A program made the position numbers and the translations under genes. From assembly GCF_900142095.1 (NCBI RefSeq), contig NZ_FQZP01000027.1, positions 1 to 33,322 on the forward strand: 33,322 bases of DNA, read 5' to 3'. Under the pieces are notes generated by a model. That model was not told where the DNA came from. It saw nothing but the letters and a program-made list of their open reading frames with translations, and searched no databases. The stretch comes from Thermoclostridium caenicola (GTDB lineage Bacteria > Bacillota > Clostridia > DSM-8532). Below are positions 30,714-33,322 of this stretch, in pieces. Position 1 is the stretch's first letter; every line of letters starts with the position of its first letter.

Positions 30714-31679
30714 ATGGAAAAGGTCGTCTGTTCGGTCATCGTTCCCATGTATAACGAGGAAGCGGTGATTCATGAAACATACCGCCGGCTGAGCAAGGTC
30801 ATGAACGATCTCGGTGAAAGTTATGAGATCATCATGATCAACGACGGCAGCCGGGATAAAACCGGAGAGATCATCAGCCAGCTCTGCAAGCAGGACAAGC
30901 ATATTAAAATGATAGATTTTGCACGCAATTTCGGTCATCAGATCGCCATCACAGCCGGCATGGACTATGCCGCGGGGGACTGCATGGTCATCATTGACGG
31001 CGATCTGCAGGATCCGCCCGAACTGATCCCGGAGATGATCCGCATCTGGCGAGAGGGCTACGATGTGGTTTACGGAAAACGCATCTCCCGCCAGGGAGAA
31101 ACCTTTTTCAAAAAGTTTACCGCCAAGTGCTTCTACCGGATTCTGCGGGCGCTCACCGACGTGGATATTCCGGTGGATACGGGGGATTTCCGGCTCATCG
31201 ACAGGAAGGTCTGCGAGGCGCTGAAACAGCTTCCGGAAAGGAACCGCTACGTCCGCGGCCTCATGAGCTGGGTCGGGTTCAAGCAAAAGGCGCTGGAATT
31301 TGAGCGTGCAGAGCGTTTCGCCGGAGAGACCAAGTATCCGTTGAAAAAAATGATCAAGCTGGCCCTGGACGGTATCATGTCTTTCTCCTACAAGCCCCTT
31401 AAACTTGCAACCTATATCGGTTCCATCCTGTCCATCATCAGCTTCCTGTACCTGATTGCCGTGCTCATCCAGAGAGCCTTCTGGCCCCATTCCACCACAT
31501 CCGGATGGGCCTCCCTCATCGCCGTCAGCCTTTTCTTCAACGGTATCATCCTGCTGATGCTGGGCATCATTGGCGAGTACATCGGAAGGATTTACGATGA
31601 AGCCAAGGGCAGGCCCCTCTATATCGTGAGCAGGCTGGAGAACATGGAGGAACGGGAAGGCCCGCGGTATAAGCTATAG
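30714..31679 (+). CDS. GT2 family polyprenyl-phosphate glycosyltransferase (GtrB-like)
   Basis: The 321-residue protein has an N-terminal GT-A domain (SVIVPMYNEE, NDGSRDKT, acidic DGDLQDPPE with Asp95 and Asp97 for the metal) and two C-terminal membrane helices (about 230-250 and 262-290) ending in GEYIGRIYDEAKGRPLYIV. This is the GtrB/DPMS/YkoT type, which loads a sugar from a nucleotide sugar onto a polyprenyl phosphate on the inner face of the membrane. Glucose or mannose are common donors, but the sugar cannot be read here. AGGAGG lies ahead of the ATG. It is last in the cluster and a strong terminator follows. Confidence 0.93.
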   Translation: MEKVVCSVIVPMYNEEAVIHETYRRLSKVMNDLGESYEIIMINDGSRDKTGEIISQLCKQDKHIKMIDFARNFGHQIAITAGMDYAAGDCMVIIDGDLQDPPELIPEMIRIWREGYDVVYGKRISRQGETFFKKFTAKCFYRILRALTDVDIPVDTGDFRLIDRKVCEALKQLPERNRYVRGLMSWVGFKQKALEFERAERFAGETKYPLKKMIKLALDGIMSFSYKPLKLATYIGSILSIISFLYLIAVLIQRAFWPHSTTSGWASLIAVSLFFNGIILLMLGIIGEYIGRIYDEAKGRPLYIVSRLENMEEREGPRYKL

Positions 31680-31713
31680 GATGGAACGAACGGTATAAAG
31701 CGACCATATTAAG

Positions 31714-31744
31714 AAAACCTGCGCTTTACAAGTGCAGGTTTTTT
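31714..31744 (+). terminator. Intrinsic terminator of the glycosylation cluster
   Basis: AAAACCTGC (31714-31722) pairs perfectly with GCAGGTTTT (31734-31742), giving a 9-bp stem and a T6 tail. Confidence 0.9.
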
Positions 31745-31839
31745 CATGAATCCATATGGATTAGATTCTGCTTGCATCGTGTTGTACGTGCAGTGCAGCA
31801 AATGCGGCGTTGTCATAGCAGGCGGACACGACAAGGGCT
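31745..31839. other. Non-coding spacer after the GT2 terminator
   Basis: About 95 bases with no gene. A weakly similar motif (TGTCATAGCAGGCGGACA, from about 31811) may be a decayed unit of the neighbouring repeats. Confidence 0.35.
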
Positions 31840-32203
31840 GAGATTGCTTCGTCGGCTCCGCCTTCTCGCAATGACATACGGGATATAATCCCGCGCGGTA
31901 TACCCCTGGTGTCATTGCAAGCGAGTGGAACAGCGCGGCAATCTGAGCTTGCGAAGCATACCCGTAACGTCATTGCGATCACCGCTCAAGCGGTGCGTGG
32001 CAATCTCTTTAAAACTTCACAGGCAGCCACGGAAGCCATGGAGATTGCTTCGTCGCTTAGCTCCTCGCAATGACACAAAGGTCATAATCCAGCAGATCCA
32101 TATCCTGGATGTCATTGCAAGCGTGTGAATCGAGCGCGGCATTCTCATCTCGCGAAGCCATACCCGTAACGTCATTGCGAGCTCATATGAGCGTGGCAAT
32201 CTC
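31840..32203. repeat. Palindromic repeat array, tandemly duplicated block of about 200 bp period
   Basis: Six imperfectly palindromic units of 35-44 bases, bounded by GTCATTGC and GCAATCTC or the reverse, lie at about 31840-31878, 31911-31946, 31969-32007, 32041-32075, 32111-32145 and 32171-32203. The first three and last three form two blocks (31840-32007 and 32041-32203) in the same order and orientation pattern, with offsets of 201, 200 and 202 bases. The stretch CATACCCGTAACGTCATTGC recurs in both. Non-coding, between convergent genes. Confidence 0.85.
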
Positions 32204-32204
32204 A

Positions 32205-33322
32205 CTAGTGCGTTCCTGCACCGAAGTAATCATCGGTAGCCCGCTTGTCTGCGTAATAGACGATCACATCCCCCGGCTCAAGTTCCCAGCCGTTCTGGTT
32301 GGTGTTGTACCCTTCTAAACGCCAGCCGTCTCCCGTTTTACCGGTATACTTCAGCGACGGATTGTCAAAGTCATCGTTATTGATCACTGAAATATCCTTA
32401 AAGTTGACGATGATGTACCCATCCCTCAGGAATACGGGCGAGCTCCTGGTCAGGTTTCTTTCCTTCGAAAGATCGGTCCCCTTCGGTACGGCCAGGCAAT
32501 CCGCCGGAAGGAAATACTCCCCGTACCATTTCTGGACCGAGGCCAGGGCCTTGTCCTTGTCCACGCTTTCAGGAATCTCCCGCTGCGGTCCCACAAAGCT
32601 TCGTACAGGCTCGCCCAGAAGAATCTTATGGTATTTGAAAACATTCACCCCATTTTGTGATATCTGCGGGAATACCTCCTTCCATTCCGCCTCGCTGTAT
32701 TCGTTCATGCCACCTCTTAAGCGGTACATGGCACCTGCCGTATCCGTGAATTCTTTCAGGTCAATCCCCCTGCGCTTAAGGTCCAGCTTCATGGCATGGG
32801 CCAGGGTATCCTCCGGACTACCTACCTTAACCAGCGGATTGGTCGGGGTCGAATAGTAGAGATCGACCTCCTGCCTGTTCTTCCCGTTCCTGTCCACAAA
32901 GTAGAAGGTGGGCATGATCTGAAGAAAATCGTACCTGTCGTAGTAGTTGCCTATGGTTCTTACCTCAAACCGCACCGCATAGCCCAACTTTACTGCCCTG
33001 TCCTTGTAGCCGGGCTCGTCGTTCTTGCCGGGCATGACCGGAAGGATGTATTTCCTCTGGGCCTCCCTTTCCCCGTTGATGTTCCGAGGACCTGTGAAGA
33101 ACACCTTACCCGAAGGCTCCGGCTTTCCCTTCTCCTTGCGGAAGAAGGATTCCCAGCCCGGGTCCTCAATATCGGTCACCTTGAAGTCATACACCCGCCC
33201 CGATACCTCCACATACTGCGATACGGTAGCAGCATAGTTGGACGGATTCAGATTGGCCTTCTCCTCTGTCTTGCTTCCATTGCTGTTGTCATTGGTGGCA
33301 AGGCTTCTGACTTCTATCTCAT
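32205..33322 (-). CDS. C-terminal part of a large, probably exported protein (DUF5704-like), cut by window edge
   Basis: The frame is open to the right edge, so the true start lies outside; at least 372 residues are present. A GTG at 33212 is only an internal Val codon: upstream codons continue in frame (SNYAATVSQY just before VEVSGRVYDF). The sequence has repeated beta-rich, aromatic stretches (VYDFKVTDIEDPGWESFF, VKLGYAVRFEVRTIG, MPTFYFVDRNG) of the kind found in DUF5704-type clostridial surface proteins, as far as I recall, but I cannot confirm. It ends with DYFGAGTH and TAG next to the repeat array. No terminator beyond the repeats was found. Confidence 0.6.
   Translation of the reverse strand, partial: EIEVRSLATNDNSNGSKTEEKANLNPSNYAATVSQYVEVSGRVYDFKVTDIEDPGWESFFRKEKGKPEPSGKVFFTGPRNINGEREAQRKYILPVMPGKNDEPGYKDRAVKLGYAVRFEVRTIGNYYDRYDFLQIMPTFYFVDRNGKNRQEVDLYYSTPTNPLVKVGSPEDTLAHAMKLDLKRRGIDLKEFTDTAGAMYRLRGGMNEYSEAEWKEVFPQISQNGVNVFKYHKILLGEPVRSFVGPQREIPESVDKDKALASVQKWYGEYFLPADCLAVPKGTDLSKERNLTRSSPVFLRDGYIIVNFKDISVINNDDFDNPSLKYTGKTGDGWRLEGYNTNQNGWELEPGDVIVYYADKRATDDYFGAGTH

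Follow-up and report, generated by a model that had tools for sequence, protein, structure and literature searches.

Ordered arrays of REP-like palindromes in the genome of Thermoclostridium caenicola

In Escherichia coli, the BIMEs are built of several unit types, joined by linkers of fixed length and repeated with a tandem period, and they consist of REPs of the GTAG type, which are tied to RAYT/TnpAREP. The arrays described here resemble this layout, i.e. they have two unit types, a fixed relative orientation and fixed spacer lengths. Another class, the CGTC REPs, was described by Di Nocera, De Gregorio and Rocco in 2013 (PMC3733652), who reported them to lack a dedicated transposase and left the mode of spread open. 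CGTC-4 and CGTC-1 of Rickettsia conorii are equated there with the Rickettsia repeats RPE-4 and RPE-6, and an ATGAC motif is given for RPE-4, RPE-6 and RPE-7 in a second paper (PMC3767692).

We analysed a stretch of T. caenicola DNA of 33,322 nt (contig NZ_FQZP01000027.1, positions 1 to 33,322; hereafter the window), which contains an array of palindromic units between two genes. The units are filed here as a variant of the CGTC-tagged REPs, in this case in Bacillota, rather than as a new kind. By comparison with the published description (PMC3733652), both are palindromes of 20-40 bp with an unpaired [C/T]GTC at one end and AT first in the stem, both form dimers and have no linked transposase, and both lie mainly between co-directional or convergent genes with a patchy distribution over phyla. 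The array is probably a mosaic whose REP-like palindromes are non-autonomous and bear marks of the CGTC superfamily; it has a BIME-like layout and would be shaped by tandem gain and loss, harmless persistence and trans-acting dispersal.

The window array and the genome-wide array rule

The array (31840-32203) comprises six palindromic units of 33-39 nt and of two types, with R units ending in GACGAAGCAATCTC, while the usual end of an F unit is GCGTGGCAATCTC or GCGCGGCAATCTC. A preliminary description of this DNA had seen a block of three palindromes present twice, an offset of about 200 bases between matching units and a convergent gap between genes, and all of this holds: the units read R(-) F(+) F(+) R(-) F(+) F(+), the repeat search gave a period of around 201 bp, and the ORF at 30714-31679 (+) faces the ORF at 32205-33320 (-). 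The features of the region are the following:

30714-31679, plus strand: convergent gene, family-2 glycosyltransferase (PF00535)
31714-31742, plus strand: inverted repeat directly 3' of the glycosyltransferase gene, terminator-like by eye
31840-31875, minus strand: R-type unit of block 1, GTCATTGCGAGAAGGCGGAGCCGACGAAGCAATCTC, exact ends
31876-31910: spacer R(-) to F(+), 35 nt (genome-wide class 33-37 nt, 18/23)
31911-31945, plus strand: F-type unit of block 1, degenerate, 2 mismatches to the ends
31946-31968: spacer F(+) to F(+), 23 nt (genome-wide class 23-29 nt, 13/15)
31969-32007, plus strand: F-type unit of block 1, strong inner hairpin, -16.9 kcal/mol as RNA, z -3.71
32008-32040: spacer F(+) to R(-), 33 nt (genome-wide class 29-33 nt, 19/21)
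32041-32074, minus strand: R-type unit of block 2
32075-32110: spacer R(-) to F(+), 36 nt
32111-32146, plus strand: F-type unit of block 2, degenerate, 2 mismatches to the ends
32147-32170: spacer F(+) to F(+), 24 nt, resembling the spacer of a module on contig C62
32171-32203, plus strand: F-type unit of block 2, final unit of the array
32205-33320, minus strand: convergent gene without Pfam match, running past the window edge

The degenerate unit is the middle one in both blocks, and the stop codon of the minus-strand gene (32205-32207) begins one base past the last unit. Within the window, GAGATTGCTTCGTCG is found at 31840 and 32041 and ATACCCGTAACGTCATTGCGA at 31958 and 32160; the repeat search returned three two-copy families with spacings of 199, 201 and 201 (D3, D4 and D5) and two four-copy families with spacings of 58, 142 and 60 (D1) and of 62, 139 and 57 (D2). 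A pattern for one F unit, with up to three mismatches, matched a single site in the window, and 100 shuffles gave no match.

The palindromes are no one-off of this locus, since their units recur throughout the genome. Exact matches to the two unit ends, 5-35 nt apart, number 69 in the 2.89 Mb of T. caenicola, against none for the backward pattern, and a relaxed scan of 39 stretches of this genome plus the window (324,130 bases) gave 124 units against two in the reversed control. They form a dispersed family in which the single, double and triple modules envisaged in the preliminary description all occur, along with larger ones: the 60 clusters in the own-genome stretches scanned comprise 29 single units, 10 doubles, 13 triples and 8 clusters of four to six.

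Across the genome, the arrays follow the order F(+)-31-R(-)-35-F(+)-28-F(+), and the spacers fall into narrow classes of 29-33 nt for F-R (19 of 21), 33-37 nt for R-F (18 of 23) and 23-29 nt for F-F (13 of 15). Orientation is canonical in 60 of the 64 adjacent unit pairs, compared to a mean of 30 and a maximum of 43 in 1000 random-orientation trials; by type, these adjacencies are 22 head-to-head (HH), 23 TT and 19 tandem. When the clusters were grouped more widely (n=44) and their gene context taken from a simple longest-ORF caller, 21 lay between co-directional, 11 between convergent and 4 between divergent genes, one lay at an edge, and seven were called intragenic, probably because of spurious ORFs. 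The convergent excess (11 of 36 classified clusters) is weak, with a p value of 0.03 by junctions and 0.22 by intergenic bases, and so is the divergent deficit (0.25 and 0.05, respectively).

This rule bears on the origin of the two blocks, which the preliminary description had attributed to one duplication followed by divergence. The shared order and period stand, while the single duplication does not follow from them: the window period is that of the genome-wide rule, and the likeness of the blocks alone is therefore no proof of one local event. With 136 of 157 columns alike (86.6%), the two blocks rank 13th of the 155 module pairs compared (22 modules; aligned over 90 columns or more), and both are nearer to the module on contig C62 (92.1% over 139 columns and 91.5% over 130) than to each other. 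The 73 C-terminal amino acids of the minus-strand neighbour gene have a second copy, 96% identical, at the end of C62 (G000:C62:14823-15041; L184, L358), with its own REP array. The C62 module adjoins the copied gene end, so that the two may have been copied as one piece, array along with gene end. A local tandem duplication of the three-palindrome module would account for the identical unit order of the blocks, their period and the 23/24-nt F-F linker (usual length 26-29 nt), similar in sequence in both blocks and C62 and in no other module, and a 155-bp tandem module was indeed gained or lost between two congeners (see below); given the rule and the closer C62 module, we hold such an origin possible, though on balance doubtful.

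Unit hairpins and their relation to CGTC REPs

The unit hairpins have an ATTGC/GCAAT stem and a partly covarying inner stem, and most R units also have G.A mismatches in opposed positions. Of the two strands, the GTCATTGC strand forms the better hairpin. With units folded alone, the GTC strand was on average the more stable in all six sets (own genome, congeners and the cross-phylum loci introduced below; R and F each) under both RNA and DNA parameters. For the cross-phylum R units, the GTC strand was more stable than the complement by 131 to 13 (RNA) and 128 to 13 (DNA), and for the own F units by 45 to 9 (RNA parameters). Real units surpassed units with shuffled insides in six of six sets (RNA) and in five of six (DNA), the congener R units being less stable than their shuffled counterparts under DNA parameters (-2.77 vs -3.22). 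Folded singly, two window units do well (z -3.71 and -2.18), whereas the other four do not exceed their shuffles in stability (z -0.74, 0.26, -0.41 and 0.40).

Some of the inner pairs covary. Of the 45 distinct R36 sequences, 42 can form pair 15-21, as GC, CG, TA, AT or GT, against a shuffle mean of 24.5 and a maximum of 32; pairs 14-20 and 15-19 of R34 lie above all 500 shuffles, and pairs 16-20 and 14-22 of R36 show no excess, these shuffles ignoring the relatedness of the sequences, so that they lend support rather than proof. At 12.22, G is opposed to A in 53 of 57 R34 sequences, and at 13.21, A is opposed to G in equally many, with G.A in 34 and A.G in 35 of 45 at the matching places of R36, in columns partly fixed by the search. 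The commonest loops of the cross-phylum set by a simple rule are C(GAA)G and C(GCA)G; loop type is nevertheless given no weight here, as C(GNA)G loops are a minority in that set (35 of 144 R and 25 of 55 F, from the commonest loops listed) and the own F units show a preference for G(GAG)C (13 of 56).

The tag is [C/T]GTC, in keeping with the CGTC, TGTC or CCTC end of the superfamily, and not the GTAG tetranucleotide of RAYT-mobilised REPINs: TGTC in 83 and CGTC in 9 of 94 own units (up to one mismatch), and TGTC in 149 and CGTC in 106 of 264 in the listed cross-phylum loci, GTC being part of the search in both cases. The first stem pairs of R34, in columns within the search ends, are A-T at 4-31 (53 of 57) and T-A at 5-30 (56 of 57). 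There are also differences from the CGTC REPs as described by Di Nocera et al. (PMC3733652). Their 3-nt tail is mostly CCA, whereas 82 of 94 own units have CTC there (CTC being part of the search, with one mismatch allowed), and their stem has 8-9 bp with a loop of 4-5 nt, whereas that of the present R units is interrupted by the G.A mismatches, R34 and R36 having 5 bp, mismatches around one G-C and then 2-3 bp; the 28-nt F units may fit the 8-9 bp stem and 4-5 nt loop. In the CGTC REPs, HH dimers predominate and TT pairs are rare; the own genome has TT pairs as often as HH pairs, whereas the listed cross-phylum loci agree with that description in being mostly HH (see below). The clusters of the present arrays are ordered, unlike those in that description, and the host genus lies in Bacillota, outside the five phyla given there. 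As for Rickettsia, where RPEs often lie within genes, unlike the present units, R. tamurae has 120 matches to our pattern and F-R pairs.

When the literature was searched by the unit letters, the matches listed included no title on such repeats, and a search by the encoded peptides gave nothing; no paper on the units in Bacillota was found in the literature searched. The present arrays add a host genus in Bacillota to the CGTC REPs, with an ordered and measurable array rule.

Distribution across bacteria

Units occur in all five genomes of the genus that were searched (69 in the own genome, 31-68 in the four congeners G001-G004), G001 being Clostridiaceae bacterium DTU059 (also numbered G388), placed in Bacillota by NCBI. 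They occur in none of 27 other genomes of the family, not in the one other genome of the order and in 2 of 28 others of the class, one of these two having a single match that is probably due to chance. In a phylum census, a loose pattern matched in 23 of 299 genomes; judged by eye, true units are present, besides T. caenicola, only in G335 (two) and perhaps in G138 (one), the rest being single chance matches.

A strict R-pattern scan of genome contigs matched at least 119 stretches, whose labels span many phyla. Labels among the matches listed include Chloroflexota, Bacteroidetes, Planctomycetota, Omnitrophota, Patescibacteria, several proteobacterial groups, Nitrospira, Fibrobacteria and others, all as deposited and some of those on MAGs doubtful. 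The pattern behind the 119 listed loci fixes GAGG and GACGAAGCAATCTC, so that these columns are partly built in, and leaves position 13 and the inner stem free; one locus (L113) belongs to the genus of the window (G001). The listed loci contain 320 units against six in the reversed sequence, and the 135 adjacencies are 101 HH, 17 TT and 17 tandem, with head-to-head pairs the commonest, as in REPINs with RAYTs. In 50 genomes taken from the matches listed (one of them G001), the pattern matched 1-280 times each and the control in none, which makes a stray contig an unlikely source for most.

The 280 matches are those of Mucilaginibacter sp. OK268 (G370, L051). A 1.7-Mb Deltaproteobacteria MAG (G396, L126) shows uneven strands, with 108 forward and 47 reverse matches, and a MAG labelled Klebsiella pneumoniae (L073, CAMBFS010000006.1), probably wrongly, has 80. 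The exact R pattern was also found in 76 stretches of IMG/VR viral contigs (L213-L288), and there were matches in 12 plasmid records (at best 100% over 32/34 bases) and five phage records.

Five of the 36 distinct own R sequences recur letter for letter in other listed loci labelled as distant groups, and none of the 82 own F sequences recurs exactly in the listed cross-phylum loci, a comparison that favours R owing to the R search pattern. With identical units in different phyla, one can test for horizontal movement or for very tight constraint.

Turnover, dispersal and possible function

Between the close species G001 and G002, 183 kb aligned in 17 pieces, from stretches picked for their unit content and hence biased towards unit presence, contain 29 indels of at least 12 nt. 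Seven of these touch units, one of the seven bordering an N run, as do some other G001 differences, and they include a 155-bp tandem module and a 105-bp piece with an F unit. Tandem modules are therefore gained or lost between close species, of which the present analysis adds a pair. None of the seven is an exact one-unit insertion with an empty site, and transposition is thus not demonstrated in this comparison. Between the own genome and the G001 and G002 stretches, there are indels and rearranged gaps and again no exact unit insertion, at around 70-85% identity and with fuzzy indel boundaries. Some congener contigs start or end at or near units (starts of G002:C29, C66 and C51, end of G003:C21), and these draft genomes probably contain more units than were counted.

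Arrays would accordingly be expected under the mosaic reading to grow and shrink through tandem duplication and deletion between repeated units, by slippage or recombination, and units would persist downstream of genes where they do little harm. Dispersal to new places and species would require a trans-acting enzyme that handles ssDNA, other than a linked RAYT. A RAYT-like transposase, for which the preliminary description had suggested looking, did not turn up: PF01797 (Y1 HUH), which we take to be the RAYT domain, has no match in a profile search of the T. caenicola genome, listed as 99.98% complete. The four congeners have one match each, with no units in the 4.2-7.5 kb around it in any of the four regions, and it is in these two respects that the units differ from REPINs with RAYTs. 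That a RAYT moved REPIN-like units and has since been lost from the own genome would agree with the REP-like anatomy, the strand-biased hairpins, the congener matches, the presence of PF01797 in 41 of the 50 repeat-bearing genomes from the contig scan (not detected in nine) and two units within 1.5 kb of one (L347) of the 12 best-scoring Y1 loci in the repeat-bearing genomes. However, PF01797 was found in 5 of 7 relatives with units and in 33 of 54 without them (Fisher p 0.70), and the former figure becomes 4 of 6 if G057, with its one match probably due to chance, is set aside; repeat-rich genomes such as G379 (78 copies), G362 (94) and G367 (45), for which completeness was not given, have no match. 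The other 11 of the 12 Y1 loci that make up the linkage count (10 further loci from unit-free relatives carry no weight) have no units. In Di Nocera et al. (PMC3733652), too, CGTC REPs do not flank tyrosine transposase genes, and we consider a lost RAYT improbable.

A linked mobiliser of another kind was sought among 773 ORFs of the 119 listed loci, clustered by blastp. The listed clusters present in at least three loci, judged by eye from their sequence starts, include no transposase-like family, the largest being GAF-domain-like (seven loci) and ABC-ATPase-like (five loci). This speaks against the units as remnants of a MITE of the classical kind, i.e. one that has terminal repeats and depends on a DDE transposase, as do the palindromic nature of the units, which are not element ends, and the lack of a target-site duplication by eye in the listed G001/G002 indels; short, dispersed and non-coding as the units are, such an origin is highly improbable. 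It is tempting to speculate that the unit was carried across many phyla by one ssDNA-acting enzyme, other than a Y1 RAYT and unlinked to the units, through recognition of the strand-specific hairpin with its opposed G.A pairs and short inner stem. The exact recurrence of R sequences in distant groups and the copy numbers of up to 280 per genome point in this direction, and we nonetheless regard so specific a scenario as rather unlikely. Either way, the strand-biased, partly covarying hairpin offers a concrete substrate in the hunt for a binding enzyme.

The window array most likely does nothing essential beyond providing a structured 3' end for the transcript of the minus-strand gene. A stronger role, as a terminator or mRNA-stabilising 3' element selected for convergent genes, would fit the modest enrichment in convergent gaps and the folding of the whole array as RNA (-157.1 kcal/mol, z -6.03 on the minus strand; -138.6, z -3.89 on the plus strand). 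It would also fit the units directly downstream of the orthologous glycosyltransferase gene in all three congeners that have it (G002, G003 and G004, 91-93% identity; not found in G001). Nevertheless, a consensus terminator scan listed none, including at the inverted repeat at 31714-31742, an Rfam search of 31600-32300 gave no family at cut-off, and nearly half of the clusters (21 of 44) lie between co-directional genes. Furthermore, the congeners differ in what lies 3' of the same gene, i.e. F R F in G002, two F in G003 and one F in G004 by the relaxed scan, the far side of the gap being aligned in G002 only, as the G003 and G004 contigs end nearby; these two genomes were examined only downstream of this gene and around their Y1 match. 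Selection as a terminator or stabilising element therefore appears unlikely to us. Downstream of the G004 glycosyltransferase gene, there is also a second dispersed repeat, GGGGACGGTTCCGCTGGTT, present four times in tandem (L364, G004:C135, around 135-240), and the similar GGGGACGGTTCTCCTGGTT occurs in the own genome (L154, near 3870).
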